From Alloalcanivorax dieselolei B5 (lineage in GTDB: Bacteria > Pseudomonadota > Gammaproteobacteria > Pseudomonadales > Alcanivoracaceae): a DNA stretch of 64,000 nt. Location of the stretch: the NCBI RefSeq assembly GCF_000300005.1, contig NC_018691.1, positions 3,286,001-3,350,000 of the forward strand. The letters are read 5' to 3'. Made by a program: the position numbers and the translations under genes. The notes below the pieces were generated by a model. The model was not told where the DNA came from and made no database searches. It saw only the letters and a list, made by a program, of their open reading frames with translations. This document shows, piece by piece, positions 10,551 to 43,854 of the stretch (positions within the stretch are counted from its first letter, which is position 1; each line of letters opens with the position of its first letter).

Positions 10551-10748
10551 GAAAAAACGTCTCACGATACACGCGCCAGCCAGCAGACGCGGGTTATTGA
10601 TAAAGCGACCACCACCCCAAGCTGGTTTACTGTAAGAGGCTGGCGTTCGTTATGCAGCAACGGCTCCAGCCGCACCGCTACGATCAGGGCGCGTCCGAAG
10701 CCGTTTCAAGAGCCGGTTCGGGCTCTGAAAACCAATTGTGCCTGATCG

Positions 10749-11420
10749 TCAGATCAGTGAGCGGGCCGCCGCCTCATCGAGGATACGCGCGACCACCTGA
10801 TCCACAGTCAGGTCCGTGGAGTCCAGTTCCAGGGCATCCTCCGCCGGTTTCAGCGGTGCCACGGAACGCTTCATATCCCGCTCATCACGAGTACGAATAT
10901 CCTCCACAAGGGCCGAGAGGGTAGCATCAAACCCCTTTTCTTTCAACTGATTATAGCGCCGCCGGGCACGTTCCTCGGCACTGGCGGTCAAATAGATCTT
11001 CAGCGGGGCATCACGAAACACCACCGTGCCCATGTCACGGCCGTCCGCCACCAAACCCGGCGCCTGGGCGAACGCCCGCTGACGCGCGAACAAGGCATCG
11101 CGAACCGGCTGCAATACCGCCACCTGGCTGGCCAGTTCACCCACGCTTTCCTGGCGGATCTCCTCGCTGACGTCGGTTTCCTCGAGCACCACGCGGGTGT
11201 CCCCGCCCCGCTCCACGAACCGTACCGGCAGGCTCTCCGCCAGGTCCACCAGCTCGAGTTTGTTATCCAGGGCCACCCCCTGGTGTTGCGCATGCAGCCC
11301 CAGCACCCGGTACAGGGCGCCGGAATCAAGCAGATGCCAGCCGAGCGCGGACGCCACCCGCCGCGCCACGGTGCCCTTGCCGGAGGAAACCGGTCCGTCA
11401 ATGGCGATAATCGGAATCAT
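10749..11420 (-). CDS. cmk: cytidylate kinase
   Basis: Phosphorylates CMP and dCMP with ATP. The 223 residues include the P-loop [10 protein letters not shown] near the N-terminus and the LID-region [12 protein letters not shown]. The ATG at 11420 overlaps the stop of the upstream tyrA/aroA gene (ATGA) and follows GGAGGTTCG. The 198-base gap to rpsA probably carries the rpsA leader and its own promoter. Confidence 0.95.
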
Positions 11421-23879: not shown

Positions 23880-25061
23880 ATGAAAGCCTTATTGCTAAGG
23901 GCCGCCACGCTCCTCGTCCTGCTCGCTGGTGTCGTTACCGTCAGCGCCGAAGACCTGCGCCTGTCGCCGGAACAAAAAGCGAAGATGGAAAAGCTGCTGC
24001 CCGGGGTCACCATCAGTGATTCACTGGTATCGGAACTGGCCAGCGTCTTTTATTCACGGGACATGCCGGTGCGGGTACGGCTCAAGGCGATCAGCAAGTT
24101 GGTGGGCATCGATCAGATGCCGCCGGGCACCGCGCTCAAGCGTAAAATCTGTATCTGGGACATCGCCGGCCGCAATGGACCGATCTTTCACGCCGCCATG
24201 GAACAGCGGGCTCTGGCGCTGGAATACGGCATCAACCTGGAAATGATCCCGTTCACCAACGAGTCGATCATGGTGGATGAATTGAAAGCCGGCCGCTGCG
24301 ACGCGGCGCTGATGACCGGCTTTCGTGCCCGTAATTTCAATGTCTACACCGGCACCATCGATTCCATCGGCGGGGTGCCGGACAATGACCACATGCGCAC
24401 CCTGCTGGAAGTGCTCGCCCATCCCAGCCAGGCGGACAAGATGGTGCATGGCGACTACGTGATCATGGGCGTGTACCCCGGCGGCGGCGCCCATATCTTC
24501 GTCAACGACAAACAGATCAGTTCCCTGGCCAAGGCCGCCGGCAAGAAAGTGGTGGTGCTGGACTACGACAAAACCCAGGCGGAGATGGTCGCCGGTATCG
24601 GCGCCACGCCGGTGCCCTCGGATATCGTCAGCGCCCCGAACAAGTTCAACAACGGCGTGGTGGATATTCTGGCGGCACCACTGATCGCCTATGAGCTTCT
24701 GGAGCTGTACAAAGGGATGACGCCGGATGGCGGCATCGTCGACTTTCCGCTGGCGCAGATCAGCATGCAGCTGGTGGGCCGGCTGGACAAATTCCCCAAC
24801 GAGATCGCCCAACTGGTACGCGAAGCGTCCTTCGAAGCCTACGACCGCATCCGCGCAAGGGTGAAAATAGAGGAAGATCGGGTGCCGGATCGCTGGTGGA
24901 TCCATATTCCGGACAAGGAGCGCCGCGTTTACGAAAGCATGATGCAGGACGCCCGCAATGTGTTGCGCAAACAAGGCTACTACGACGGTCGCATGCTCGA
25001 CATGCAGAAGCGGATCCGCTGCAAATACACGCCGTCACGCGGTGAGTGCTCCAATTCCTAG
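23880..25061 (+). CDS. TRAP-like periplasmic binding protein, paralogue 1 (N-terminally extended)
   Basis: A secreted protein of 393 residues (signal peptide, cleavage near residue 23). It shares with three paralogues in this window the motifs CIWDIAGRNGPIF, G-x-CDAALMTG, GTIDSIGGVP, KFNNGVVD, LYKGMTPDGGI and a C-terminal CK-x4-SR-x-EC signature. Cysteines 91, 140, 381 and 390 are conserved in all four and could form two disulfides. Residues 24-88 are an extra charged, helix-like region missing from the others. I recall this family from databases only as an uncharacterised putative solute-binding group. No classical DctP signature was recognised. Confidence 0.7.
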   Translation: MKALLLRAATLLVLLAGVVTVSAEDLRLSPEQKAKMEKLLPGVTISDSLVSELASVFYSRDMPVRVRLKAISKLVGIDQMPPGTALKRKICIWDIAGRNGPIFHAAMEQRALALEYGINLEMIPFTNESIMVDELKAGRCDAALMTGFRARNFNVYTGTIDSIGGVPDNDHMRTLLEVLAHPSQADKMVHGDYVIMGVYPGGGAHIFVNDKQISSLAKAAGKKVVVLDYDKTQAEMVAGIGATPVPSDIVSAPNKFNNGVVDILAAPLIAYELLELYKGMTPDGGIVDFPLAQISMQLVGRLDKFPNEIAQLVREASFEAYDRIRARVKIEEDRVPDRWWIHIPDKERRVYESMMQDARNVLRKQGYYDGRMLDMQKRIRCKYTPSRGECSNS

Positions 25062-25085
25062 ACTCTGGGCGGAGAGACACGGACC

Positions 25086-26132
25086 ATGATCCATGGCTGG
25101 AAATATACCACTGCGTTATTGCTGGCGCTGTTGGGCCCCGCCGTCCCGGCGATGGCCGAACCCGCGCCCGGCGCCGTCACCAAGGCGTTCCAGGAACGCC
25201 GTCATCTGACCGTCTGCATCTGGGACCTGGTCGGCCGCAACGGGCCGATTTTCTCCGTGGCCCAGGATCAGAAGGCCCGTTTCCTGGAGTACGGCCTGGA
25301 CATCGATCTCGAGCCCTATACCAATGAACGGGTCATGGTTGAGGCGCTCAAGGCGCGGCAGTGTGACGCGGCTCTGATGACCGGCATGCGCGCGCGGCTG
25401 TTCAACAAGTACACCGGCACCATTGATTCCATCGGCGGCGTGCCCAGTGAAGAGCATATGCGCATCCTGCTGGAAGTGCTGGCCAACCCGGAATCGGCTT
25501 CACGCATGGTGGAAGGCGATTACGTGATCCTTGGCATCGCCCCCGCCGGCGCCGCCTATATTTTCGTCAACGACAAACGCATCAATACCCTGGCCAAGGC
25601 CGCCGGCAAAAAAGTGGCGGTACTGGATTACGACCCGACGCAGGCGGAGATGGTGGCCCAGGTGGGGGCATCGCCGGTGCCATCGGATCTGGTCAGCGCG
25701 CCCAACAAATTCAACAACGGCGTGGTGGACGTGCTGGCGGCACCGCTGGCCGCCTATCAGATCATGGAGCTGTACAAGGGCATGACGCCGGACGGCGGCA
25801 TCATCGATTACCCGCTGGCGCAGATCAGCCTGCAGTTGGTGGGCCACAAGGATCGCTTCCCGGCGGATATGGCACAGATCTCCCGGGAGCTGTTCTTCGA
25901 GGGGTACCAGAAGATGATGGATCGCGTGCATCTGGAATCCCGCCAGGTGCAGGATCATTGGTGGGTGCCGATTCCGGACCGGGACAAACAGGACTATGAG
26001 GTGATGATGCGCGATGCCCGCCTGCAGTTGCGCGAGCAGGGCTACTACGACGGCGACATGCTCAACCTGCAACAACGGATCCGTTGCAAGCTGGACGCAC
26101 GCCGCGCCGAGTGTGCCAATCCGGTGGAGTGA
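25086..26132 (+). CDS. TRAP-like periplasmic binding protein, paralogue 2
   Basis: A secreted 348-residue protein (cleavage near AMA, residue 24), most like paralogue 1 and following it after 24 bases, so the pair is a tandem duplication in one transcript. Conserved Cys are 44, 93, 334 and 343. The shared blocks TNERVMVEALKA, GTIDSIGGVPSEEHMR, IFVNDKRINTLAKAAGKKV and YPLAQISLQLVG run the length of the protein, while the N-terminal extension of paralogue 1 is missing. A role as substrate-capturing subunit is inferred from the permeases downstream. Confidence 0.7.
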   Translation: MIHGWKYTTALLLALLGPAVPAMAEPAPGAVTKAFQERRHLTVCIWDLVGRNGPIFSVAQDQKARFLEYGLDIDLEPYTNERVMVEALKARQCDAALMTGMRARLFNKYTGTIDSIGGVPSEEHMRILLEVLANPESASRMVEGDYVILGIAPAGAAYIFVNDKRINTLAKAAGKKVAVLDYDPTQAEMVAQVGASPVPSDLVSAPNKFNNGVVDVLAAPLAAYQIMELYKGMTPDGGIIDYPLAQISLQLVGHKDRFPADMAQISRELFFEGYQKMMDRVHLESRQVQDHWWVPIPDRDKQDYEVMMRDARLQLREQGYYDGDMLNLQQRIRCKLDARRAECANPVE

Positions 26133-26146
26133 ACCGGTCGCTCCGC

Positions 26147-27505
26147 CTACGCATCTTCCGTGGGAATCTGTTCCAGAGCGCCAAACATATCCACGCGCTG
26201 ATCGTTGAACAGATCGAGCTCCGGCGCCAGCGCCTGCACATAGCGGTCGAAATAGAGAAACTGCTTGAGCAGCAGAGCGAACTCCCGCGGGAACCGGATA
26301 CCGTGATCCTCGCCGATGCGCACCAGATCCATCAGCAAGCGATTGACCTCGCGATCATTACGGTCGGCCTGCACCAGCGATGACGGATCCACCCGGGTGA
26401 GGCGGTCCTGTAAAGCGGTGATATCCCGCGCCAGCGCGTCCACGTCCACTGCTTCCCGGGTCATGCCCACCATCACCATGGACCGGGCCATGGTCTGGAC
26501 GTCACCATTGCCAATCGCCTCAAGGAAACCGGACATGCCCTCCCAGGCTTCACGGCGAATGCGCCCAACCATGCCAAAGTCGATGAAGCCGACACGGCCG
26601 TCTTCCAGCACCATCAGGTTACCGGCGTGCAAGTCGGCGTGGAAGAAATCGCACAGCATGAGACTGGAGAACCAGGTATTCAGCGCGGTGATCAGCACTC
26701 CTGCGGGGTCGTCGGTATACTCACGCAGAGCGCCGAGGTCGGTAATCGGCATGCCGTGCAGCCGTTCCATGGTCAATACCCTGGTGGTGGTGTGGGAACG
26801 GATCGGCCGCGGCGCCACCACCGCGCGGTTACCGGTCTGCGCCAGGAAGTCGTTGAATTGCTCCAGGTTGCGGGCCTCCTGCAGGAAATCGCACTCCTCC
26901 ATCATCCCCGCCTGCAGTTCCTCGATCACGCCGGACAGCGCCGAACGGCTCAACCCCGGCGCCAGTGATTCGATCACCCGGGCGGAGAAATAGAGAAAAT
27001 TGAAATCGGTGAGCAACACATTGCGCACGCCGGGGCGCTGCACCTTGATCACCACCTCGGCACCGTTGTGCAGGCGCGCGGCGTGCACCTGGGCAATGGA
27101 GGCACTGGCCAGCGGCTGTGGATCCACCCATTCGAACTGCTGCTCAAGGCTGCCGCCCAGCTCCTCCTCCACCACCCCGCGGATATAGTGGAAGGACAGC
27201 GGCGGAGTCCGATCCAGGCATTTCTGAAATGCCTCCACGTACTCTTCCGGAAACAGTGACGGCGAGCTGGCGATGAACTGCCCCAGCTTGATGTACGTCG
27301 CGCCCAGGGATTCAAAAGTGGCGCGCAGCCGTTCCGGCAGGGCGTCACGATCACCCAGCGCCCAGCCCAGCCCCTGGCGGCCCACCACACCAAGGGTCTC
27401 GATGATACGCAGGGCGCCTCTGGCTGTATTCCTTGCCAGCGCCAGGCCGGAGCGCTCACGCAACAGATCGGCGCGAGCGCCGGTAACCGAAGAAGGCTGT
27501 GTCAT
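26147..27505 (-). CDS. ABC1/UbiB-family atypical kinase
   Basis: A 452-residue protein of the AarF/UbiB/ABC1 family. It shows the KxGQ-type helix motif ([18 protein letters not shown]), the Ala-rich loop [11 protein letters not shown], the Lys in [10 protein letters not shown], the catalytic [12 protein letters not shown] and the metal-binding FIDFGMVGR. Family members support ubiquinone or lipid metabolism. It lacks the long C-terminal membrane helices of UbiB proper, so it is probably a paralogue rather than ubiB. A GTG directly before the ATG is an alternative start. It opposes the surrounding binding-protein genes and converges on paralogue 2. Confidence 0.82.
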
Positions 27506-27609
27506 CACGTCTGTGTCCCTGTTTAAAAAATGAATCGCCCTGGGCCGGTAAACTACCGGAAAAGGGTAACCATAAAAACCGCGACGATTTTTACCTCGAG
27601 GTTAATTAT

Positions 27610-27621
27610 GACCAGTCGGTC
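27610..27621. promoter_or_regulatory. GACC-N4-GGTC palindrome, possible TetR-type operator
   Basis: GACCAGTCGGTC has the inverted GACC/GGTC half-sites with a four-base centre that many TetR-family repressors recognise. No tetR gene is adjacent, so the regulator would be encoded elsewhere. Confidence 0.35.
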
Positions 27622-27825
27622 TTTCTGTCCCCTTTTTTTCTTCTGGTTCACGAGTGTCCACTCAAAGATCCCGAAGTTAAAAGGTAACCGTCTGATTTTA
27701 TTACCAAGATCCCGGGAGGCCCAGCGTTTAGGTAAACTTCATTGGCTGTTCCGACAGGAGAGCGCCGACGTACGGTCATTTCCCCTGGTCCCGTGCAAAT
27801 CCATGATCCCCTTGCTGGCGTCCAT

Positions 27826-27841
27826 ATGTAATGGCTTACAT
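27826..27841. promoter_or_regulatory. ATGTAA-N4-TTACAT palindrome
   Basis: A perfect six-base inverted repeat with a TGGC centre, 92 bases before the TatT-like start codon. It looks like a dimeric repressor or activator site; the regulator is unknown. Confidence 0.35.
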
Positions 27842-27932
27842 GCATTTTTGTAATTGGCGCTTGTGTCAACGGGCGTGCGTTGTGTACCGTCAAATTTTCC
27901 ACGTCGAGAACAATAAAAAGGAGCTAAAAGGA

Positions 27933-28958
27933 ATGCGTTCTCTAATAACCAAAGTGCTACGACCCGCGCGTGTACTGATCGTCGGCGGCGCCCTGCTGGC
28001 GCTGCAGGGCTGTGGCATGATCTATAAAACCACCGGGGATATTCTGGTCAGCTTCGGCCAGGCGGAATTACTGCCTTATATGCTGGCCTACGACGATGTC
28101 CGCATGGGCTGCATCATGGGTGAAGCCCAGACTCCTCTCCTGATGTCCTTCGAAACCGTGGGTTCCCATCCCGGCCGCCTGGGTGTGATGACCTTCGTCA
28201 CCTCGGCGGTGTGCGCCGAACAGCTTGCGCTGGAATCCGAGCTGCGCTACCTGCGTGCCATGAAGGAAGGCCGGGTCGCCGAAGCCCAGGATGCCCGCAT
28301 CGAGCAAAAACGCTGGTCCGCCCTGGCCGCCGAGCGACTGCTCACCGCCTACCAGCGCCTGGAAGTGGAATACGGCAAGGTGGGAGAAGGCGAGTGCCCC
28401 AAACTGAATCGCAAACTGGATCAACTGGTCTGGCTGGTGGGTAACATTGCCGGCGCCCAGGCACTGGTGGCCGACGGTGCCGCCGACGGCGTGGTCGGTG
28501 TGCCGCGGGATATCGTTGGCAAAGTCGCCCGCAACGCCTCCTGCCTGAGCAACGAGAACTGGTGGGGCGCGCCGGAAGGCCTGCGTGCCACGATCTGGAA
28601 CCTGCTGCCACAGTTGGCTCCGGAAGGCGCTCAACCCTGGCCGAAGCTGGAACAATCCGCCGAAATGGGCTTCGAAAAAGGTGTGCGTCTGGGCAGCGCT
28701 TTCCTGGCGCTGAGCGCTTACAGCAAGGGCGACAACGATCGTCTGCGCACAGCGATTCGCGATTTCGCCGCCAACGACGAAAATCTGGACCCGGACTACG
28801 CCATGATCGACGCCATCGCCGGTGTCCTGATACAGGGCTTGTCCGATCGCATGTGGACCGAGGCCACGGGCAAGCGGACTCCGGTGAACGGCCTGGGCAC
28901 CTTCTGGGATGACCAGCCCTCTTCCGGCTCCAAAGTTGACATCGACGATCTGCTGTAA
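27933..28958 (+). CDS. TatT-like TRAP-associated lipoprotein
   Basis: A 341-residue predicted lipoprotein. A basic N-terminus and hydrophobic stretch end in LLALQGC, with Cys27 as the lipidation site. The rest is alpha-helical and repeat-like (SELRYLRAMKEGRVAEAQ..., NWWGAPEGLRATIWNLLPQ..., ALSAYSKGDNDRLRTAIRDF), which resembles the TPR-built T component (TatT) described for Treponema TRAP transporters. The match is by pattern, not alignment. It directly precedes binding protein 3 and the permeases, the same T-P-QM order as the Treponema locus. The ATG at 27933 has AAGGAG nine bases upstream. Confidence 0.6.
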   Translation: MRSLITKVLRPARVLIVGGALLALQGCGMIYKTTGDILVSFGQAELLPYMLAYDDVRMGCIMGEAQTPLLMSFETVGSHPGRLGVMTFVTSAVCAEQLALESELRYLRAMKEGRVAEAQDARIEQKRWSALAAERLLTAYQRLEVEYGKVGEGECPKLNRKLDQLVWLVGNIAGAQALVADGAADGVVGVPRDIVGKVARNASCLSNENWWGAPEGLRATIWNLLPQLAPEGAQPWPKLEQSAEMGFEKGVRLGSAFLALSAYSKGDNDRLRTAIRDFAANDENLDPDYAMIDAIAGVLIQGLSDRMWTEATGKRTPVNGLGTFWDDQPSSGSKVDIDDLL

Positions 28959-28965
28959 CGGGACC

Positions 28966-28998
28966 GGAGGGCCTTTCCCCGCTGGAAGGCCCGCCTCC
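28966..28998 (+). terminator. hairpin between the TatT-like gene and paralogue 3
   Basis: GGAGGGCCTTTCC and GGAAGGCCCGCCTCC form a bulged GC-rich stem with no T run. In a polycistronic mRNA it could protect the upstream message or reduce read-through rather than terminate. Confidence 0.5.
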
Positions 28999-29030
28999 CG
29001 ATAATCAAAAAAACCAGGAGAGACGATCTC

Positions 29031-30044
29031 ATGCGCTACAAGAAAGCGTTAACCGCCGTGATGGCGACCGTACTGGGCCTGGCCGCCGCCGGCGCCAATG
29101 CCGCCGAGAAACGGACCTTGTGTGTCTTTGACATCATCGGTGCCAGTGGCGACGTCTACAACGTGATGAAGGACTACCGTACCGCCGCCGCCGGTTGGGG
29201 AGCCGACATCGACCTCAAGCCCTACACCGACGAGAAGATCACCGCCGAGGCCCTCAAGGCCGGGCAGTGCGACGGCGCGGTGCTGACCGGTCTGCGGGTA
29301 CGCCAGTTCAACCACTACTCCGGCAGCATGGAAGCGATCGGCGCGATTCCGGATTACGAGCATCTGCGCACCGTGATCCAGGTGCTGTCCAGCGACACCC
29401 CGTCCATCAACGAAAAAATGGCCTCCGGCCCCTACACCATTGGCGGCCTGATGCCCATGGGCGCGGCTTATCTGTTCGTCAAGGACAAGGCCATTAACAA
29501 CGTCAACGCCCTGTCCGGCAAGTCCATCTCGGTGATGGAATACGACCCGGCCCAGGCGCAGATGGCCGCCAAGGTGGGCATGTCCCCGGTGCTGTCGGAC
29601 ATCACCAACTTCGCCGGCCGTTTCAACAACAACTCCGTGGATATCTGCTTCGCTCCGGTGGTGGCCTATTCCGCGCTCGAACTGTACAAGGGGCTGCAGC
29701 CCGACGGTGGCATCATTCGCTATACGCTCGGCCAGCTCACCAATCAGATCGTGCTGCGCAAGGACCGCTTCTCCGAGGATTTCGTCAAGCAGTCCCGCAA
29801 GTTTATGTTCGGCCAGTTTGACCGCGCCATGACCATCATCAACAACGCGGAAAACGAGGTGGACAAGAAGTGGTGGATCGAGCTGCCCGAGGAAGACAAG
29901 CGTGGCTATGACGAGATGCTGCGTGAGGCTCGTATCGAGATGACCCAGGACGGTATTTACAGCAAGGACCTGACCAGCCTTCTACTGAAGGTACGTTGCA
30001 AGTACGACCCTTCCCGCGCGGAATGCGCCAACCCTCAAGAGTAA
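29031..30044 (+). CDS. TRAP-like periplasmic binding protein, paralogue 3
   Basis: A secreted 337-residue protein (cleavage after ANA, residue 24), the most diverged of the four paralogues and the one next to the permeases, so probably their main partner. Conserved Cys are 31, 80, 323 and 332; an additional Cys lies in SVDICFAPV. GTIDSIGG is changed to GSMEAIGAIP and NNGVVD to NNNSVD, which suggests a different ligand. ALKAGQCDGAVLTG, LYKGLQPDGGI, KKWWIELPEEDKRGYDEM and the C-terminal RCKYDPSRAECAN are kept. Confidence 0.7.
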   Translation: MRYKKALTAVMATVLGLAAAGANAAEKRTLCVFDIIGASGDVYNVMKDYRTAAAGWGADIDLKPYTDEKITAEALKAGQCDGAVLTGLRVRQFNHYSGSMEAIGAIPDYEHLRTVIQVLSSDTPSINEKMASGPYTIGGLMPMGAAYLFVKDKAINNVNALSGKSISVMEYDPAQAQMAAKVGMSPVLSDITNFAGRFNNNSVDICFAPVVAYSALELYKGLQPDGGIIRYTLGQLTNQIVLRKDRFSEDFVKQSRKFMFGQFDRAMTIINNAENEVDKKWWIELPEEDKRGYDEMLREARIEMTQDGIYSKDLTSLLLKVRCKYDPSRAECANPQE

Positions 30045-30056
30045 CATCTGAAACCG

Positions 30057-30077
30057 CGGGGCCGGCATCCGGCCCCG
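30057..30077 (+). terminator. GC-rich hairpin between paralogue 3 and permease 1
   Basis: A perfect 9-bp stem (CGGGGCCGG, loop CAT) 12 bases after the stop of paralogue 3. With no T run it is a candidate partial terminator that would leave more binding protein than permease, a common arrangement in transporter operons. Confidence 0.6.
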
Positions 30078-30208
30078 TTCTCCATTCCCTCCACCACTTC
30101 CGGCGCTTCGGCCATACCGGCGCGAAGGGGTGAAGTATATGCTCGCTCGAAAAGGTCGTTTTCATACGCGGCGATCTCATTGCTGGCATAACAAAAACCG
30201 GGTGAAAA

Positions 30209-32554
30209 ATGGATAAACCAACCTTTACCGTGGCGAACCGTTCCATCAAGGAATGGGTATCCTCCCTGCCGACCCTGATCATCCTGCTGCTGACGATTTT
30301 TCTTTCTTCCGGTGAAATTATTCATTCCCAATTATTGAAGATAGGTGAAAATACCTGGGAGAGTTATTTCCTGCTGCGTGGCGCTGGCATGGTGCAGCAG
30401 CCGACCTGCAATCCGGACCCGAACATCGATCAGCTCACCCGGGAAACGGTACGCAAGCGCCAGCAGGAAAGCGCTGATGATCCACTGGCGGACGTGCTCG
30501 GCACCTCGGAGGTCAACGAGGACGCGATCCGCCAGTCTCTGGAACGCTCCAGGGAAAACTGCCGGACTCGCTGGGAGCGTTTCCAGACCATAGAGGAAAG
30601 GGTTACACCCGGTGTCATCGCCTTCCGCACCGTCGAGGGCGGCGTGGCGAAAATCGTCTCCACTCTCGGCGACTACAAACGTCTTCTGTTGTGTCTTCTG
30701 GTCTTGATCTGCGCCGCCACCGCCACTCTCGGCCGGCACCATATCGCCCTGCGGCCGCAACGGACGGTAAAGGATTATCTTGTTTCCACCACCGCACAGT
30801 TGATCGCCAATGCGCTGCTGCTTTCCTCCGCTTTCGTTTATCGCATGGAGGAAGTCGCCGCCATGGAGTCTGGCGTGCGCGTCGGCCATTTCTATTTGCA
30901 CCAGTTCTGGATCGCCGGCTTCGCCATTCTCACCGCCGCCTCCCTGTACCAGTTGATGCGCCGCCCCCGGGATCTGGAATCCGGTGGCTCCTGGGGCAAG
31001 GCCCTGCTTACCATTCCGCTTTACACTTTCATGGCTCTGACCGCGTCGGCGCAGTTCCTCGGCCAGGGTTATTACCATGGCATCGCCGTGTATCTGGGCA
31101 TGATGATGGAGATGTCCACGCTGTTCCTGAACCTGGCGCTGTACATCTGGATCGGCATGATGCTGAAGCAGACCAAACTGGCCCATCTGGTGTTCGATGT
31201 ACTGCGGCCATGGAAAATGTCACCGGAACTGATGGCCTTCGTGGTGCTGGCCGTGGCGGCCATCCCCACCGCTTACACCGGTGCTTCCGGTATCTTCGTG
31301 ATCGCCGCCGGTGCCACCATCTACAACGAGTTGATCCGCGCCGGCGCGCGCAAACAACTGGCCCTGGCCGCCACCGCCATGTCCGGTTCCATGGGTGTGG
31401 TGCTGCGCCCCTGTCTGCTGGTGGTGATCATCGCCGCGCTGAACAAGAGCGTGACCACCGCCGAGCTGTTCAACTCCGGCATCAAGATTTTCATTCTCAG
31501 CCTGGTGCTGTTCTTCATTTACAGTCAGTTCGCGCGCACCTCGCCGGCCCGTATCGCCCCGTTCTCGGAGGCCCTGCCGCACAGTCTGAAGCGGCTGATA
31601 CCACTGCTGCCCTACGGCATCGTGGTCGGTACCGTGCTGGTTTTCTTCAGCGACGTCCTCAACCGCCACCTGGATGAGTTCTCCGCCCCGATCATCCTGC
31701 CGGTGATGCTGCTGGCCGTGCTGTTCTACGAAAAACTCAGCCGTCATTTCCTGCACCTGTTCGCGCTGGCACTGATCCCCATGCTGGCGCTGTCCTTCAT
31801 GGACACCTGGCATGGCTATCAGGCCCTGCAAAGCGGAGAGATCCCCACTGGCTGGACCATCGTGACGCTGCAGAATCATCTTTGGGGACTGTTCTGGCGC
31901 AACGTGATTCTTGGCGGCTTTATCGTCGTGCACTACCTGGTGGCGCCGCGCATGAAAGGCAATGGCGATACCGACCCTCACTACGCGCCCGAGGAAGGCG
32001 TCTCGGAAAAACTGGAAGGCTCTCTGCGCTTCTCCACCAACGAGACCACCACTCACATCGGCGCGCTGTTGATGCTGATGGCTCTGTCGGTGAGCACCGG
32101 TGGCATCATCGAACGCTCTGGTCTGATGGAAATGCTGCCCGAGGCGTTCTCCTCGATCTGGATCGCGATGACCATTCTGGTGGTGACCATGGTGGTCATC
32201 GGCATGATCATGGACCCCTATGGCGCGGTGATTCTGGTGAACGCCACCATCGCCCAGGTGGCGTTCAACAACGGGATCGATCCGTTGCACTTCTGGATGA
32301 TCACACTGGTGGCGTTCGAATTGGGTTACCTGACCCCGCCGGTGGCTCTCAACCACCTGCTGACCCGGCAGGTGGTGGGTGACGACGAGGTGGAAAGCGC
32401 CAAACTTCACAGCGGCACCTTCTTCCGCCGCTACGAGAAGTTCCTGCTGCCCATCGCGGTCATGCTGACGGCACTGTTGGCGGTTAGCTATCTGCCGCTG
32501 ATGTCCGAGGGGCTGCATCAGTGGTTGTTCCATAAGATACAAGTGACCATGTAA
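30209..32554 (+). CDS. fused TRAP-type permease 1 (Q-like and M-like domains)
   Basis: A polytopic inner-membrane protein of 781 residues. A first transmembrane helix (about 20-38) leads to a periplasmic loop of about 115 residues with Cys67 and Cys118, then three further helices before residue 250, which may play the DctQ part. From about 270 on it is DctM-like: YTGASGIFVIAAGAT (356-370) and ARKQLALAATAMSGSMGVVLRPC, then the C-terminal signature DPYGAVILVNATIAQVAFNN, GIDPLHFW and YLTPPVALNHLL (669-718). It probably imports an organic anion driven by an ion gradient; the substrate is unknown. The ribosome site is weak (GGTGAAAA). Confidence 0.8.
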   Translation: MDKPTFTVANRSIKEWVSSLPTLIILLLTIFLSSGEIIHSQLLKIGENTWESYFLLRGAGMVQQPTCNPDPNIDQLTRETVRKRQQESADDPLADVLGTSEVNEDAIRQSLERSRENCRTRWERFQTIEERVTPGVIAFRTVEGGVAKIVSTLGDYKRLLLCLLVLICAATATLGRHHIALRPQRTVKDYLVSTTAQLIANALLLSSAFVYRMEEVAAMESGVRVGHFYLHQFWIAGFAILTAASLYQLMRRPRDLESGGSWGKALLTIPLYTFMALTASAQFLGQGYYHGIAVYLGMMMEMSTLFLNLALYIWIGMMLKQTKLAHLVFDVLRPWKMSPELMAFVVLAVAAIPTAYTGASGIFVIAAGATIYNELIRAGARKQLALAATAMSGSMGVVLRPCLLVVIIAALNKSVTTAELFNSGIKIFILSLVLFFIYSQFARTSPARIAPFSEALPHSLKRLIPLLPYGIVVGTVLVFFSDVLNRHLDEFSAPIILPVMLLAVLFYEKLSRHFLHLFALALIPMLALSFMDTWHGYQALQSGEIPTGWTIVTLQNHLWGLFWRNVILGGFIVVHYLVAPRMKGNGDTDPHYAPEEGVSEKLEGSLRFSTNETTTHIGALLMLMALSVSTGGIIERSGLMEMLPEAFSSIWIAMTILVVTMVVIGMIMDPYGAVILVNATIAQVAFNNGIDPLHFWMITLVAFELGYLTPPVALNHLLTRQVVGDDEVESAKLHSGTFFRRYEKFLLPIAVMLTALLAVSYLPLMSEGLHQWLFHKIQVTM

Positions 32555-32587
32555 CCACCTGGTGTCAATAAACACCAAAATCACAGC

Positions 32588-32611
32588 AAGGGGCTCTCAC
32601 GGGCCCTTTTT
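32588..32611 (+). terminator. weak intrinsic terminator after permease 1
   Basis: AAGGGGC and GCCCTTT form a seven-pair stem (one G-T pair) ending in a T run, 34 bases after the stop. It may partly separate the two permease genes. Confidence 0.6.
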
Positions 32612-32690
32612 GTGTTCAACACCAAAGAGACAAAAAAGGCAACGCAACACCAATAACAACAACCTGTAGCCAAAAAAAGGAGAAGGGGCG

Positions 32691-35063
32691 ATGGAAGAAA
32701 GAGCCATGGGGGAAACCGCGAAGAGGGGCAGCGGGCGCTGGCTTCGGCGGTCGCCGGCCGAGTGGTTTGCTTCATTACCCACCCTGCTGGTATTGCTGCT
32801 GGCACTGTTTCTCTCATCCGGAGAGATCATCCATTCACAGTTGCTCAAGATCGGGGAAAACACCTGGGAAAGTTATTTTCTGCTGCGTGGCGCCGGTCTC
32901 ATGGAGGAACCGACCTGCAATCCCGATCCGGATATCAGCCAGCTGACCCGGGAAACCCTGCAACGGCGGCAGGCGGAAGCCGCCAACGATCCACTTGCCG
33001 GCGTGCTGGGCACGCCCAGCGTCAACGAAGACGCCATCCGTCAGTCACTGCAGCGGTCACGGGAGAATTGCCGGGGAAAATGGGACCGCCACCAAATCAT
33101 TCAGGAAAGGGTCACCCCTTCGGTGGTGATGTTTCGCAACGTGGAAGGCGGCGTAGCCTGGGTGGTGTCCTCACTGGGCGATTACAAGCGCTTATTACTT
33201 TGCCTGCTGTTGATGATCTGCGCCACCCGCACCACGCTGGGCCGGCACCATATCGCCCTGCGTCCGCAGCGTACGGTAAAGGACCATATTGTCTCCACCA
33301 GCGCGCAACTGGCCGCCAATGCCCTGCTGCTGCTGTCGGCCACCGTCTATCGCGTCGAGGAAGCGGCGGCAATGGAATCCGGCGTCCGGGTCGGCCACTT
33401 CTACTTGCATCAATTCTGGATCGCCGGCTTCGCCGTGCTGACCGCGGCGTCGCTGTATCAGTTGATCCGCTTTCCCAAGGGACTGGAATCCGGCGGCTCC
33501 TGGGGTAAGGCCCTGTTGACTATTCCGCTTTATACCTTCATGTGTCTGTCCGCGTCCTCCCAGTTCATCAGCCAGGGCTACTATCACGGCATCGCCGTGT
33601 ATCTGGGCATCATGATGGAAATGTCCACCATGTTTCTCAATCTGGCGCTGTACATCTGGATCGGCATGATGCTCAGACAAACCCGGCTGACCCATCTGGT
33701 GTTCGACGTGCTGCGGCCCTGGCGCATGTCACCGGAACTGATGGCCTTCGTGGTACTGGCGGTGACCGCCGTGCCCACCGCCTACACTGGCGCCTCCGGT
33801 ATCTTCGTGATCGCCGCCGGGGCCACCGTCTACAATGAGATGATCCGGGCCGGCGCCCGCAAACAGCTGGCCCTGGCCACCACCGCCATGTCCGGTTCCA
33901 TGGGCGTGGTGTTACGCCCCTGCCTGCTGGTGGTGATCATCGCCGCGCTCAACAAGAACGTCACCACCACCGAACTGTTCAGCTCCGGCCTCAAGGTATT
34001 CATGCTCAGCTTGCTGCTGTTCTTCATCTACAGTCAGTTCGCGCGCACCTCGCCGGCCCGCATCGCCCCGTTCTCCGAAGCCGTGCCGGCCAGCCTCAAA
34101 CGTCTGGTGCCACTGTTGCCTTACGCCATTGTCGTTGGCGCCGTGCTGGTACTGTTCAGCGACGTGCTGGACCGTCAACTGGATGAGTTCTCCGCCCCCA
34201 TCATCCTGCCCGTGATGTTGCTGGCCGTGCTGTTCTACGAAAAACTCAGCCATCACCTGCTGCATCTGTTCGCCCTGTTCCTGGTGCCCATGATCGCACT
34301 GTCCTTCAACGATCTCTGGCAGGGCTACCAGGCCCTTCAAAGCGGCGAGTTACCCACCGGCTGGACCCACATTACGCTGCAAAATCACCTGTGGGGCCTG
34401 TTTTCACGCAACCTGTTCCTGGCTGGTTTTTTGCTGGTGCACTATCTGATCGCACCTCGCATGGCGAAAAGCGAGGCGGTGGATCCGCACTACGCCCCCG
34501 AGAAAGGGGTCTCCGAAAAGCTGGAAGGGTCCCTGCGTTTCGCCACCAATGACACTACCACCCACATCGGCGCCATGCTGATGCTGATGGCCCTGTCGGT
34601 GGGCACCGGCGGGCTGATCGAACGCTCGGGGCTGGTGGAAATGCTACCGGAATCGTTCTCCTCGATCTGGATCGCCACCAGTATTCTGGTGGTGACCATG
34701 GTGATTCTCGGCATGATCATGGAGCCCTTCGGCGCCGTGGTGCTGGTCAACGCCACCGTCGCCCAGGTCGCCTTCAACAACGGCATCGATCCGCTGCATT
34801 TCTGGATGATCACCCTGGTGGCGTTCGAGTTGGGCTATCTGACTCCGCCGGTGGCGGTGAACCATCTGCTCACTCGTCAGGTGGTGGGCGACGATGAAGT
34901 GGAGAGCGCCAAACTTCAGCACGGCTCCTTCTTCCGCCGCTACGAGAAGTATCTGCTGCCGATCGCGGTGATGTTCACCGCCCTGCTGCTGGTGAGCTAT
35001 CTGCCGTTACTGTCGGAAGGCCTGCATCAGTGGCTGTTCCAGAAAATCCAGATCGCCATGTGA
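32691..35063 (+). CDS. fused TRAP-type permease 2 (Q-like and M-like domains)
   Basis: A 790-residue paralogue of permease 1, similar over its whole length, with the same layout: helix 1 (about 29-47), a Cys-bearing periplasmic loop (Cys76, Cys127), three more helices, then the DctM-like core and the YLTPPVAVNHLL signature. The stretch after helix 1 (SSGEIIHSQLLKIGENTWES) is identical in both. It differs mainly in a longer N-terminus and scattered membrane residues. AAGGAGAAGGGG gives a strong ribosome site, unlike permease 1. The pair arose by tandem duplication. Confidence 0.8.
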   Translation: MEERAMGETAKRGSGRWLRRSPAEWFASLPTLLVLLLALFLSSGEIIHSQLLKIGENTWESYFLLRGAGLMEEPTCNPDPDISQLTRETLQRRQAEAANDPLAGVLGTPSVNEDAIRQSLQRSRENCRGKWDRHQIIQERVTPSVVMFRNVEGGVAWVVSSLGDYKRLLLCLLLMICATRTTLGRHHIALRPQRTVKDHIVSTSAQLAANALLLLSATVYRVEEAAAMESGVRVGHFYLHQFWIAGFAVLTAASLYQLIRFPKGLESGGSWGKALLTIPLYTFMCLSASSQFISQGYYHGIAVYLGIMMEMSTMFLNLALYIWIGMMLRQTRLTHLVFDVLRPWRMSPELMAFVVLAVTAVPTAYTGASGIFVIAAGATVYNEMIRAGARKQLALATTAMSGSMGVVLRPCLLVVIIAALNKNVTTTELFSSGLKVFMLSLLLFFIYSQFARTSPARIAPFSEAVPASLKRLVPLLPYAIVVGAVLVLFSDVLDRQLDEFSAPIILPVMLLAVLFYEKLSHHLLHLFALFLVPMIALSFNDLWQGYQALQSGELPTGWTHITLQNHLWGLFSRNLFLAGFLLVHYLIAPRMAKSEAVDPHYAPEKGVSEKLEGSLRFATNDTTTHIGAMLMLMALSVGTGGLIERSGLVEMLPESFSSIWIATSILVVTMVILGMIMEPFGAVVLVNATVAQVAFNNGIDPLHFWMITLVAFELGYLTPPVAVNHLLTRQVVGDDEVESAKLQHGSFFRRYEKYLLPIAVMFTALLLVSYLPLLSEGLHQWLFQKIQIAM

Positions 35064-35073
35064 CCACTCGCTT

Positions 35074-35108
35074 CCGCTATCGGCCTTGCTTCATCGCGCC
35101 GATAGCGG
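35074..35108 (+). terminator. hairpin after permease 2
   Basis: A perfect 11-bp stem (CCGCTATCGGC with its complement at 35098-35108, 13-base loop), followed by a second small palindrome ATCAGG-CCC-CCTGAT at about 35112-35126. There is no clear T run; probable 3' end of the permease mRNA. Confidence 0.55.
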
Positions 35109-35148
35109 ATAATCAGGCCCCCTGATACGAAAAAAGCAGGTCCGGCTT

Positions 35149-35307
35149 ATGAATGACAAGACCCGCGAAGAACAGTACCGGCGCCGTCCCACGGAGCCGT
35201 TGCCGAAAAGCGTTCGTCCCGCCTTATTCTTGTTGCTCTTTCTGGTCGCCGTAACCCTGTGCATCGCCGGTGCCGCCGCCCTGGTGGACCGTCTCATCTA
35301 TGGGTGA
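35149..35307 (+). CDS. small single-pass membrane protein
   Basis: A 52-residue frame with a charged N-terminus (MNDKTREEQYRRRPTEPL) and one hydrophobic helix (about residues 24-46, ALFLLLFLVAVTLCIAGAAA). AGCAGG precedes the ATG, and its stop lies five bases before the PilZ start, so the two look co-translated. The function is not recognised; co-expression with a c-di-GMP-binding protein is the only clue. Confidence 0.6.
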   Translation: MNDKTREEQYRRRPTEPLPKSVRPALFLLLFLVAVTLCIAGAAALVDRLIYG

Positions 35308-35312
35308 AGCCG

Positions 35313-35657
35313 ATGAAGCACGTAAAGGAACAACGTCGTCATTCGCGCCACCGCGCTCCGAACGGCCTGAACATGCGTCTGCGCCAGGATCCACCGACGG
35401 AGGACGACGATCTCACGTTGACATGCCGGGATATATCCCGCGCCGGTCTGGGCGTGGAACTGCCCTATTCGATCCGTCCCGACACCGACGTGGAGTTGTG
35501 GCTGCAGTTACCCAACCAGGGTGAAGCCTTGCATTTGTTCGGTACTATTGCCTGGTGTGCCGAGGGCACGCAGCGCTGGTCCGCGGGCATCGCCCTTGAT
35601 CTGGAGCGAACCGACGGCGCCCTCTGGGCGGCCCGGTTCGACGATCCCGATGTCTGA
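35313..35657 (+). CDS. PilZ domain protein
   Basis: A 114-residue single-domain PilZ protein. The N-terminal Arg-rich motif (EQRRHSRHRAP) and the D-x-S-x-x-G motif in CRDISRAGLGVEL are the c-di-GMP-binding residues of the family. It probably acts as a c-di-GMP effector; the output is unknown. Its stop overlaps the methyltransferase start by eight bases. Confidence 0.85.
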   Translation: MKHVKEQRRHSRHRAPNGLNMRLRQDPPTEDDDLTLTCRDISRAGLGVELPYSIRPDTDVELWLQLPNQGEALHLFGTIAWCAEGTQRWSAGIALDLERTDGALWAARFDDPDV

Positions 35658-40329: not shown

Positions 40330-41331
40330 TCAGGAATCCGGCTCCGGGTTCCGGTCCAGGACTTCCACCCGGCGCCGCTCTCCCGCCTCGAACAAACGCT
40401 CCCGCAACCGTTCTATTTCCGCCTGCCGATCGCTCGGCGCCAGACCGCTTTCCAGAATGGCGCGACGCTGCTCGCGGTAATCCTGGTAACGGGACTGCCA
40501 GAGCGCCCGGCGCTGGTCCAGTTCCGCCAGCCGGTCCGCCGCCTCCCGGCCCAGCCGTTGCTCACGCAATTGGTCGATCCGCCGCTGCGGTGCGCCCTGT
40601 TCCCGCAACGCCCGCACTTCCTCATGCACCTCCATCGGCTCCCGCGAGGCGCGCACCTGCTCACGCAAATCCGGCGGCAGGGTAGCTTCCAACGCATCCA
40701 GACGCTCACTCCTGGTGGCTTCGTCCAGTTCGTTGTCCTCAAGGATGCGGCGCCGCTGCAGGGCGAAATCCGCGTAACGGTCCTCGAAGCCAAAAAACGC
40801 CTCGGCGGTGGTGGCGTCGAAAAACCGGCCTCTCAATGCCTGTCGCTGTTCAAGACTGTGGCGTAACGCGGCCGGATCCCGCCCCGGCGGTGTCAGCTCC
40901 GCCAGCGCCTCGCGATAGCCCAGATACTGTTGCAGCAGTGCCCAGGCCCGGGCCGCCGCCGACGGCGACAGCCGGGCCTCGAAATCCGCCGCCAGGCGCG
41001 CCTTGAGTGTCTCCAGATCCTCTTCGCCCAAGGCCGACAACACATAATCGAAGCGACGACGCAGCGCTTCGTTGACGATCAGGTCGCCGTTCTCGTCCTC
41101 GGCCAGAGCCCCGTCCGGCCGGGTGCCGCGCCAGGACGGCGGCGGCGAATCGGCCAGTTCCCGGCCGCGCCCGGCGTAATCGTGCAATGCCGATGCCGCC
41201 GATGCTTGTGGCGGGGTCTGGCGCGACCCCGCCACGGGCGTGGGGCCATCGCCTCCTGGCCACCCCCAGATGCCCAGGCCCGCCAGCGCCAGCAGCACGA
41301 TGAGGATTGTGTATATACGTCCTTTGGTCAC
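40330..41331 (-). CDS. lifO: lipase-specific foldase (lipase chaperone)
   Basis: A 333-residue inner-membrane-anchored periplasmic chaperone needed to fold secreted class I lipases. There is a single N-terminal transmembrane segment, a Pro/Ala-rich linker, then a long helical domain. The signature R-x-x-F-D-Y-x-L-S-A is present as RRRFDYVLSALGE. The GTG at 41331 with GAGGG upstream is preferred over a GTG 12 codons earlier. It is divergent from the lipase, not downstream of it as in Pseudomonas. Confidence 0.88.
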   Translation of the reverse strand: MTKGRIYTILIVLLALAGLGIWGWPGGDGPTPVAGSRQTPPQASAASALHDYAGRGRELADSPPPSWRGTRPDGALAEDENGDLIVNEALRRRFDYVLSALGEEDLETLKARLAADFEARLSPSAAARAWALLQQYLGYREALAELTPPGRDPAALRHSLEQRQALRGRFFDATTAEAFFGFEDRYADFALQRRRILEDNELDEATRSERLDALEATLPPDLREQVRASREPMEVHEEVRALREQGAPQRRIDQLREQRLGREAADRLAELDQRRALWQSRYQDYREQRRAILESGLAPSDRQAEIERLRERLFEAGERRRVEVLDRNPEPDS

Positions 41332-41621
41332 GTTCAGCCCTCGACGGCAACCGTTCCCGACCCGCACACCGTCACTCTGACGGCAAGTGCCGCTCGTCGG
41401 ATTACGACATTTTTATTAGTGAACACCTGTTTCGCTCTGGTTAGGATCATAGCAGGCTGTTGGCAAACAGTCCGGAACCCGCCGGGTTCCTTTCATGACC
41501 GTAAAGGGTGGCCGATGGAATCGGTCATTGGCAAGAAAGAGCGCAGCGCGGTTGATGTTCTGGTTCATCCGCGACGGGCTCGACAAACGATACCGAAAAC
41601 AACAGACAAACAGGGAAGCTT

Positions 41622-42599
41622 ATGAAAACGTCAATCAAGACTCTTTTGAGAGCAAATCCGCTGAAGGCTGACGTCACTACAGTGGCGCTGAAGGCTCTGC
41701 TCGGCATCCTGCTGTTCTCGTGGCTGACCGCCGCCCATGCCGACGACTACACCGAAACCCGTTATCCCATCGTGCTGGTGCACGGCCTGTTCGGCTTCGA
41801 TACCGCCGCTGGCGTGGACTATTGGTATCGCATCCCCGAGGAACTGCGACGAAGCGGCGCCGAAGTCTACGTGACCCAGGTCGCCGCCGCCCAGGACACC
41901 GAGGTGCGCGGCGAGCAGCTGGCACGACAGGTGGAGGATATTCTTGCCATCAGCGGCGCCGACAAGGTCAACCTGATCGGTCACAGTCACGGCAGCCCCA
42001 CCATCCGCTACGTGGCCTCGGTCTACCCGGACATGGTCGCCTCCGCCACCGGTGTTGGCGGCGTCAACTGGGGCGCCCGGCTGGCGGACGTGCTGCAGGG
42101 CGTGGTGGACGACGTGCCTTTCAGCGGTGATCTGATCGGCTTTCTCGGTAATGCCCTGGCCGGGCTGATCGATCTGTTCTCCGGTGGCGGCAATGAACAG
42201 GACATCCTGGCGGCCTTGAAGGCGCTCACCACCGAAGAGACCATCGCCTTCAACCAGCAATACCCGGAAGGCATGCCCAGTGAGTATTGCGGCGAGGGTC
42301 CCAGGGAAGGCAGCAATGGTGTCTCTTATTTCTCCTGGAGTGGCGCCAAGCCGCTGACCAATTTCCTCGACCCTTCCGACGTCCTGCTCGGCGCCACCGC
42401 CATCGTTTTCCTCGGCGAGAAAAACGATGGGCTGGTGAGCAGTTGCTCCAGCCACCTGGGCATGGTGATCCGCGACGACTATCGCATGAACCATCTGGAT
42501 GAGGTGAATCAGGTGCTCGGGCTGCATGACCTGTTCAGTACCGATCCGGTCACCCTTTATCGCCAGCACGCCAACCGGCTCGGGAACTATCAGTTCTGA
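41622..42599 (+). CDS. lipA: secreted triacylglycerol lipase
   Basis: A 325-residue class I (subfamily I.1/I.2) lipase. A long signal peptide ends near AHA (residue 40). The catalytic triad reads Ser122 in GHSHG, Asp269 in KNDGLV and His291 in NHLDEVN; the oxyanion loop is VLVHGLFGF. Cys223 and Cys275 would form the usual disulfide. The family needs the Lif foldase, encoded divergently, and is normally secreted by the type II system. Confidence 0.92.
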   Translation: MKTSIKTLLRANPLKADVTTVALKALLGILLFSWLTAAHADDYTETRYPIVLVHGLFGFDTAAGVDYWYRIPEELRRSGAEVYVTQVAAAQDTEVRGEQLARQVEDILAISGADKVNLIGHSHGSPTIRYVASVYPDMVASATGVGGVNWGARLADVLQGVVDDVPFSGDLIGFLGNALAGLIDLFSGGGNEQDILAALKALTTEETIAFNQQYPEGMPSEYCGEGPREGSNGVSYFSWSGAKPLTNFLDPSDVLLGATAIVFLGEKNDGLVSSCSSHLGMVIRDDYRMNHLDEVNQVLGLHDLFSTDPVTLYRQHANRLGNYQF

Positions 42600-42858: not shown

Positions 42859-43854
42859 ATGATAACAAGTCTTCGCGTAGCATTGGCGCTGTGCGCCATG
42901 CTGACCGTCCCCCTGGCCCAGGCCGCCGATCTGATTGAGAGGCGTATCTGCGTGTTCGATCTGGCCGGTAACGTCGGTCCGGTGATGACCGCCATGAAGG
43001 ACTGGCAGACCGCCGCGCTGCAATGGGGGTTGAAAGCCAAACTGGTGGCTTATACCAATGAAGCCATCGCCGCCGAGGATCTCAAGGCCGGGGTCTGCGA
43101 CGCGTCCCTGATCACCGGCCTGCGTGGCCGCCAGTTCAATCAATACAGCGGCACCATCGATTCCATTGGCAGCCTGCCGACCATGGATCATATGAAAGTG
43201 CTGCTGCAGGTTCTGTCCGATCCGCGCAGCGCCAAACCCATGACCAGCGGCGATTATGAAGTGCTCGGCGTGGCACCGGCGGGCGCCGCCTACATCTTCG
43301 TCAACGATCGGGAAATCAATTCGCTGGCCAAGGCCGCGGGCAAGAAAGTCGCGGTGCTGGAGTTCGATGAAACCCAGGCCATCATGGTGGCTCAGGTGGG
43401 CGCCACACCGGTGTCCTCCGATATCACCAATTTCTCCACCAAATTCAATAACGGCGTGGTCGACGTGATCGCCGCCCCGCTGATCGCCTATGAAATACTG
43501 GAACTGTACAAGGGCCTGAGCCCGGACGGCGGCATCATCGATTATCCGTTGATGCAGCTTTCGATTCAGTTGATCGGCACCAAGGCCCGTTTCCCGGAAG
43601 AGATCGCGCAAAAATCCCGCGAGTACTTCTACAACACTCTGGATCGGGTGATCGAGCAACTGGATCGTGAGGCCGAGGCGGTCAACAAGAAGTGGTGGGT
43701 ACAGATTCCCGACGCCGACAAGCAGGAATACGAAGTCATGATGCAGGAAGCCCGCGTTCAGCTACAGCAGCAGGGTTTCTACAATGCCGACATGCTCAAC
43801 CTGCAAAAACGGATTCGCTGCAAGCTGGAGCCGTCACGGGCGGAGTGCACCTGA
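42859..43854 (+). CDS. TRAP-like periplasmic binding protein, paralogue 4 (orphan)
   Basis: A secreted 331-residue protein (cleavage after AQA, residue 22) with the same four Cys (31, 80, 321, 330) and blocks as the three paralogues at 23.9-30.0 kb: CVFDLAGNVGPVM, GTIDSIGSLP, IFVNDREINSLAKAAGKKV, KFNNGVVDVIAAPL and KKWWVQIPDADKQEYEVMM. No permease is adjacent; it follows the lipase gene, separated from it by the lipase terminator. It may share the permeases encoded 8-12 kb away. The ATG at 42859 has AGGA eight bases upstream; an in-frame start at 42742 would spoil the signal peptide. Confidence 0.7.
   Translation: MITSLRVALALCAMLTVPLAQAADLIERRICVFDLAGNVGPVMTAMKDWQTAALQWGLKAKLVAYTNEAIAAEDLKAGVCDASLITGLRGRQFNQYSGTIDSIGSLPTMDHMKVLLQVLSDPRSAKPMTSGDYEVLGVAPAGAAYIFVNDREINSLAKAAGKKVAVLEFDETQAIMVAQVGATPVSSDITNFSTKFNNGVVDVIAAPLIAYEILELYKGLSPDGGIIDYPLMQLSIQLIGTKARFPEEIAQKSREYFYNTLDRVIEQLDREAEAVNKKWWVQIPDADKQEYEVMMQEARVQLQQQGFYNADMLNLQKRIRCKLEPSRAECT

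Follow-up and report, generated by a model that had tools for sequence, protein, structure and literature searches.

A lipoprotein, AdeT-family binding proteins and DctM-type permeases that probably form a divergent TRAP-type uptake system in Alloalcanivorax dieselolei B5

Do the secreted proteins, the lipoprotein and the two large permeases encoded close together in Alloalcanivorax dieselolei B5 belong to a single transport system, and of what kind would it be? The genes lie in a stretch of 64,000 nucleotides (contig NC_018691.1, positions 3,286,001 to 3,350,000), referred to here as the window, to which all coordinates refer. The initial annotation had proposed a separate branch of tripartite ATP-independent periplasmic (TRAP) transport with several swappable binding proteins. 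Our analysis indicates that the lipoprotein, a binding protein of the AdeT family (Pfam PF19582, AdeT1_2) and the permease probably constitute one uptake system of the TRAP type that forms a branch of its own. The open reading frames (ORFs) concerned are real and are located as annotated, with three of the four secreted paralogues clustered and the fourth at 42859:

23880–25061, + strand: AdeT1_2 secreted solute-binding protein, first of a tandem pair (393 residues; PF19582 E value 5.5e-78; about 60 extra N-terminal residues)
25086–26132, + strand: AdeT1_2 secreted solute-binding protein, second of the tandem pair (348 residues; PF19582 E value 2.2e-86)
27933–28958, + strand: all-helical lipoprotein, candidate T component (341 residues when started at the ATG yielding an LQGC lipobox)
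29031–30044, + strand: AdeT1_2 binding protein of the cassette, P component (337 residues; PF19582 E value 9.8e-93)
30209–32554, + strand: permease 1, with a DctM-type C-terminal part (781 residues; PF06808 E value 1.3e-14)
32691–35063, + strand: permease 2, DctM-type (790 residues; PF06808 E value 1.6e-15)
42859–43854, + strand: fourth AdeT1_2 solute-binding protein (331 residues; PF19582 E value 6.1e-92)

A longer ORF for the lipoprotein begins at 27831.

The three families are found together almost without exception. Since class-wide sampling was too thin (AdeT in 3/140), counts were made within the order. Of 195 genomes of the order, 37 carry AdeT; all 37 also have the lipoprotein, and 36 have the permease; none of the 158 AdeT-negative genomes carries the lipoprotein or the permease at the thresholds used (E ≤ 1e-10 for AdeT, 1e-5 for the lipoprotein and 1e-30 for the permease). 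Candidates from a loose first look were scored, up to 9–10 per genome for AdeT and the lipoprotein and 5 for the permease. The one genome without a permease hit, G292, has its lipoprotein-linked AdeT truncated by the end of a contig. Members of the families were recovered from 23 of the 97 genera sampled, and the three-gene cassette is also carried by the Marinobacter adhaerens plasmid pHP-187. Canonical TatT, by contrast, was found in 33/145 genomes, 11 of which are AdeT-positive.

Gene order is similarly conserved. The 37 genomes contain 58 lipoprotein genes. Of these, 56 have a same-strand AdeT gene no more than 1.5 kb away and 48 a permease gene within 1.5 kb downstream; the order AdeT-lipoprotein-permease replaces lipoprotein-AdeT-permease in 5/58. 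Among 77 loci fetched by AdeT similarity, the lipoprotein-AdeT pair is found in 51 and the complete lipoprotein-AdeT-permease layout in 40, 18 of which feature two permease matches; 25 loci have no lipoprotein. Secreted proteins and permeases thus do accompany each other, both in gene neighbourhoods and in genomes, and the layout is no chance arrangement. The order first read from the window stood in those 40 loci, but the TatT and Q identities attached to it are unsupported, as discussed below. Binding proteins usually outnumber permeases: the 37 genomes yielded 140 AdeT genes, of which 63 lie beside a lipoprotein or permease gene, and 75 permease rows, of which 50 have AdeT directly upstream and 5 the lipoprotein only (C-terminal-half rows of permeases already counted were dropped, and five fragment rows were kept).

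All four secreted paralogues match PF19582 far over the cut-off (E 5.5e-78 to 9.8e-93), and all have signal peptides, as judged by eye. The other three are 46, 44 and 39% identical to the 29031 protein, and the 23880 protein falls in the class of the AdeT tree labelled TANDEM. The initial annotation recognised no DctP signature because the DctP and TRAP_S1 models of Pfam and NCBIfam score under their cut-offs: PF03480 (DctP) matches the 25086 and 42859 proteins at E 9.7e-4 and 1.7e-4, respectively, and TRAP_S1 matches the 25086 protein at E 1.9e-11 (43.8 bits, cut-off 50).

A structure of the 29031 protein predicted by AlphaFold2 from 40 aligned AdeTs, thinned from 148, has a predicted local distance difference test score (pLDDT) of 91.8 and a predicted template modelling (TM) score of 0.87. 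Foldseek returned 791 PDB matches at E ≤ 0.001 for this model, the top one being 4nn3 (E 3.3e-16, probability 1.00). The best 50 of the 791 are all TRAP-type binding proteins, either by title or as SiaP and TarP entries, which we take to be TRAP binding proteins. Profile-profile alignment of AdeT with a set of 22 P proteins of TRAP systems, of which 21 are encoded at TatT loci and one is classical, gave a probability of 97.9 and E 4.4e-13. The AdeT proteins are therefore predicted to have the TRAP DctP fold, and the profiles indicate that they are homologous to TRAP P proteins. The fold itself is not new, since PMC11467057 (2024) already places PF19582 among periplasmic binding proteins, closest to DctP. 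Accordingly, the parts described at first as unfamiliar include a family that is named in Pfam and has a published fold. The system, ordinary in kind as TRAP transport, is unusual in make-up.

AdeT proteins differ from classical TRAP binding proteins at the substrate-binding arginine. The corresponding site, located by alignment to 4nn3 and to 2xwk (a SiaP R147A entry), is occupied in 148 AdeTs by alanine (126), serine (16), valine (4), proline (1) or glycine (1), and never by arginine. The same site is tryptophan in 21/21 TatP proteins from TatT loci of the order and arginine in the one classical DctP of this genome compared. A missing arginine separates AdeT from classical TRAP only, as TatP-type proteins lack it too; PMC5812351 describes TatP homologues as mostly lacking it and having alanine instead. 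Four cysteines are invariant in 148/148 AdeTs, linked and unlinked alike.

The two permeases are 81% identical and carry the DctM signature reported for them, with PF06808 scores of 54.3 and 57.3 bits over a cut-off of 23.8; both miss the cut-off of TIGR00786 (64.4 and 69.6 bits versus 268). When compared with 22 M proteins, the C-terminal part aligned over 352 columns spanning both halves (probability 99.5, E 1.2e-22), which indicates, at the level of profiles, homology to M proteins. The best outside matches of the permease profile in the host genome are two pieces of canonical TatM (9.5e-14 and 6.1e-8), followed by DctM of a classical locus (1.3e-5). In the PDB, the permease matches the isethionate DctMQ 9pym (E 1.7e-5 alone and 2.9e-7 as a profile) and also 7qha. 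Together with the DctP fold, the P and M profile alignments and the near-perfect co-occurrence of the families, these results bear out a separate branch of TRAP transport.

The N-terminal region of the permeases contains four hydrophobic stretches (peaks at 38, 177, 210 and 250), and a fifth at 284 may belong to the M part. The loop between the first two stretches measures 116 residues in permease 1 and 113–118 residues across 22 aligned permeases, and features two cysteines invariant in 22/22. For that alignment, 23 sequences had been kept, from which we excluded a fragment of 219 residues and exchanged one copy for the window's own. By its topology, the N-terminal region may be the equivalent of Q; fused Q-M proteins are treated in PMC10942642. 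Ahead of the last DctM part, at residues ~521–600, the window permeases contain additional hydrophobic segments that some relatives lack.

The lipoprotein occupies the T position in the cassette. The lipobox cysteine is present in 21/21 aligned rows that reach the site; the remaining 6 of the 27 rows, to which the family was thinned, begin later. No Pfam family was found for the lipoprotein, none of the 27 members having a match with E < 0.08, and a PDB search with its profile returned nothing up to E 10. The AlphaFold2 model (pLDDT 88.8) is all-helical, with 11 helices of at least 4 residues. Foldseek found nothing at E ≤ 0.001 for this model. The third-ranked fold match is 8g53, titled as a bacterial transporter of the tetratricopeptide repeat-protein-associated TRAP (TPAT) family and presumably BstC (probability 1.00, weak E 0.14; target TM-score 0.56, query TM-score 0.33). 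It is the sole TPAT protein among the best 50 fold matches.

From these parts, the following route may be proposed. The lipoprotein would be a dedicated partner of AdeT, to which it would most likely hand over a hydrophobic, lipid-like solute that it has received. The soluble AdeT (P) would bind the solute in the periplasm and deliver it to the permease, an ion-driven elevator with a DctM-like C-terminal part, which would import it. Additional AdeT paralogues may widen the range of solutes, with one permease possibly used by several AdeTs, as the word swappable had implied. The hand-over has a parallel in Treponema, where TatT is proposed to pass a lipid-like solute to TatP; here hand-over, ion coupling and a lipid-like substrate are inferred. 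A more specific scenario, which we offer tentatively and at slightly less than even chances, is that an unrelated helical lipoprotein took the T role, that a new cysteine-paired N-terminal scaffold took the Q role, and that the arginine-less AdeTs, AdeT1 and AdeT2 of Acinetobacter included, bind hydrophobic solutes.

A hydrophobic solute is favoured because of the absent arginine, the TPAT parallel and lipid-related neighbouring genes. A lipase gene lies within 1.5 kb of 8/148 AdeT genes (7 loci), and in 2 loci tested AdeT has a START-domain gene nearby. Genes resembling acyl-CoA dehydrogenase, named by eye, adjoin AdeT in 4 of the 21 loci looked at (neighbours were listed only for AdeT ORFs passing a simple overlap filter), and one such gene, domain-tested, lies near the lipoprotein of locus L200.

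The families are also present in a Moraxellaceae-like (Acinetobacter-like) family (f2), where 54/119 genomes carry AdeT. In 39 of the 119 that were searched for the permease, it was found in 31/31 AdeT-positive and 0/8 AdeT-negative genomes. The large genus of f2 is probably Acinetobacter, as the gyrB-AdeT region of one genome (G433) is 88–89% identical to four A. baumannii records. Besides AdeT, four A. baumannii records possess the permease, at 40.9% identity, and the lipoprotein, at 41.9%. The arrangement differs from that in the window. In six Acinetobacter-like permease regions, the lipoprotein gene precedes the permease by 0.8–0.9 kb. Closer reading of two of these regions showed an ORF between the two genes, and the one ORF tested proved to be a rhomboid. 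The AdeT genes lie elsewhere, in triplets in 3 of the 7 regions read, one triplet behind gyrB. Rhomboid genes are found beside the lipoprotein in L200 (9146–9709, Acinetobacter-like) and beside TatT in the host genome (L131, 5627–6484).

In A. baumannii CP040042.1, the genes of the AdeT array are annotated as RND transporter, RND transporter and hypothetical protein (RND, resistance-nodulation-division), the permease as TRAP transporter large permease subunit and the lipoprotein as hypothetical. The second array gene encodes 335 residues with lysine at position 280, which the other two lack. This is suggestive, not proof, that it corresponds to AdeT1, for which Lys280 is named in PMC7687900. 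Three A. baumannii records filed as plasmids (NZ_CP104448.1, NZ_CP077849.1 and NZ_CP064203.1; 3.7–4.1 Mb) look like whole chromosomes.

Several results weigh against a single lipid-importing TRAP system. A PDB sequence search with AdeT alone returned nothing up to E 1, and the AdeT profile gave only matches at E ≥ 0.14, a kinase first, with TRAP solute-binding proteins among them. The lipoprotein had been called TatT-like, and as TatT by sequence it was rejected: PF16811 (TatT) matches 0/27 members at E ≤ 10, in searches whose HMMER filters discard most weak matches, and hhalign alignment of the lipoprotein profile with 29 canonical TatT proteins (from 29 of 30 loci fetched) gave a probability of 0.1%. 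What is left of the likeness is the one weak fold match to 8g53, with which complement C3d folds rank level and around which unrelated helical folds are found. The description of the permeases as fused Q-M likewise lacks a convincing DctQ match, as a search of three N-terminal regions produced one at E 0.89, and profile comparison with DctQ gave 0.7%, or 0.8% with the loop left out. As for gene context, 77 of the 140 AdeT genes lie away from both partners, 20/75 permease rows have neither AdeT nor lipoprotein nearby, and no AdeT was found in the six Acinetobacter-like permease regions (~20 kb). Only a minority of loci have a lipase, START-domain or acyl-CoA dehydrogenase-like gene near AdeT, so that the substrate class is something we infer. 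Finally, PMC7687900 reports increased ethidium efflux in E. coli making AdeT1, and a fourfold higher erythromycin minimum inhibitory concentration with propionylated AdeT1.

The alternative that survives best is that the permease works with the cassette AdeT (29031) alone and that the 23880, 25086 and 42859 proteins do other jobs, such as sensing or periplasmic lipid buffering. This is a real but somewhat doubtful possibility. In a tree of 143 AdeT proteins (148 ORFs reduced by identical C-terminal ends), linkage changes 3 times, versus a mean of 43 in 200 shuffles, so that linked AdeTs group together and stand apart; the unlinked ones, which are the majority and have varied neighbours, would be older paralogues rather than recent copies. 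For instance, an unlinked AdeT gene, with a short reversed match to another, lies just upstream of pqqB-C-D-E-like genes in L008 (~9945–14659; named by eye, the two tested both having fitting domains), and another follows an MpaB/rubber-oxygenase family gene in L009 (8631–10855). Against such a division of labour, the Acinetobacter-like genomes keep the permease without a nearby AdeT in the six regions read, a hint that it is supplied by unlinked AdeTs in these genomes, and the four invariant cysteines and the absent arginine are common to linked and unlinked proteins (148/148).

It is unlikely that the genes encode a TRAP system that imports a small organic acid, with the lipoprotein as an accessory and no lipid carrier. 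The nearest PDB folds of AdeT, among the best 50 of 791, do include binding proteins for sialic acid, isethionate and aromatic acids, and the lipoprotein is no TatT homologue by sequence, both of which would fit such a substrate. However, the arginine that binds the carboxylate is absent from every AdeT (148/148), and the lipoprotein is present in all AdeT genomes (37/37).

A far less probable explanation follows the Acinetobacter literature and annotation, according to which AdeT is the membrane-fusion part of an RND drug-efflux pump. PMC7687900 describes AdeT1 as the membrane fusion protein of an RND pump, and the ethidium and erythromycin effects cited above come from the same source. Two of the three AdeT genes in CP040042.1 are annotated as RND transporters. 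However, PMC7687900 also found that wild-type AdeT1 gives no resistance in E. coli and that an earlier plasmid contained a frame-shift; fold and profiles match TRAP binding proteins, in line with the DctP placement in PMC11467057; the steady partners of AdeT are a DctM-type permease and a lipoprotein; and no membrane fusion protein family is found among the Pfam matches of the window proteins. The efflux label is probably wrong, and AdeT1 and AdeT2 of Acinetobacter would, by family, be binding proteins of the TRAP-type importer rather than RND pump parts.

That the parts are chance neighbours or merely a co-inherited chromosome segment can be dismissed, because, even though unrelated genes surround the AdeT genes at 23880/25086 and 42859, co-occurrence refutes it (0/158 AdeT-negative genomes with lipoprotein or permease), the families extend to 23/97 genera and a plasmid, and gene order varies.

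How, then, does a TRAP-type system of lipoprotein, AdeT and permease relate to those already described? It resembles TPAT/TRAP-T transporters (TatT, TatP and TatQM of Treponema pallidum and proteobacteria), in which a lipoprotein is likewise encoded beside a DctP-fold protein lacking the substrate arginine and a DctM-type permease, and which have been reported from hydrocarbon degraders (PMC5812351). Unlike in TPAT, the lipoprotein has no PF16811 match and no profile resemblance to TatT, the arginine site is mostly alanine rather than the tryptophan of the order's TatP proteins (21/21), the Q region is not recognisable and there are several binding proteins. P, Q and M were found at 21/21 TatT loci read in the order. 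Since the host genome has a canonical TatT-TatP-TatQ-TatM locus elsewhere (L131, G000:C1:3697500-3705500), ~0.38 Mb from the window cassette, the window system is a second, divergent kind beside it.

Classical TRAP transporters (DctPQM, SiaPQM) share the P fold and the M part but differ in having the substrate arginine, in lacking the additional lipoprotein and in possessing a recognisable DctQ. The 113–118-residue loop with two invariant cysteines is a further difference. In the BstB/BstC sterol carriers of Methylococcus, too, a helical protein of the T type works beside a binding protein; however, BstB belongs to the phosphonate-binding family and not to DctP (both points from PMC10942540). 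The partner there is BstA. AdeT1 and AdeT2 of A. baumannii are members of the same PF19582 family, in records that also contain the permease and the lipoprotein, but the Acinetobacter-like AdeT genes lie apart from the permease.

Other genes of the window are as follows:

26147–27508, − strand: ABC1-type kinase gene (ABC1/UbiB-like; Pfam), unrelated to the transport genes
40330–41367, − strand: lipase chaperone
41622–42599: lipase, beside the fourth AdeT gene

The kinase gene splits the tandem binding-protein pair from the lipoprotein cassette, which corrects the earlier description of the locus. Wherever placed, such a gene is present in 30/53 lipoprotein-bearing loci, the window included. 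The lipase and chaperone genes (40330–42599) are divergent and lie next to the fourth AdeT gene; both are also near AdeT in L069, L071, L073 and L075. Promoter- and terminator-like sites are not in excess in the region 27400–35400, with 1 versus 2.9 and 7 versus 7.1 in shuffled sequences, respectively. Six full-length AdeT genes and one short match were found in the host genome (4.93 Mb). Among named organisms, A. balearicus, A. xenomutans and Alcanivorax sp. 24 have the proteins closest to that encoded at 29031 (98–99% identical).

What is new here is the tie of AdeT to a permease and a lipoprotein; among open-licence PubMed Central (PMC) papers, no report linking AdeT to a TRAP permease or to the lipoprotein was found. 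The lipoprotein represents a second family, unrelated to TatT by sequence, in which lipid hand-over to a TRAP binding protein may be tested, and the link provides the AdeT family with named partners open to deletion or co-purification. Surveys of Acinetobacter count AdeT1 and AdeT2 among the known or putative efflux-pump genes. If the AdeT family feeds an importer, such efflux-gene counts mislabel it.

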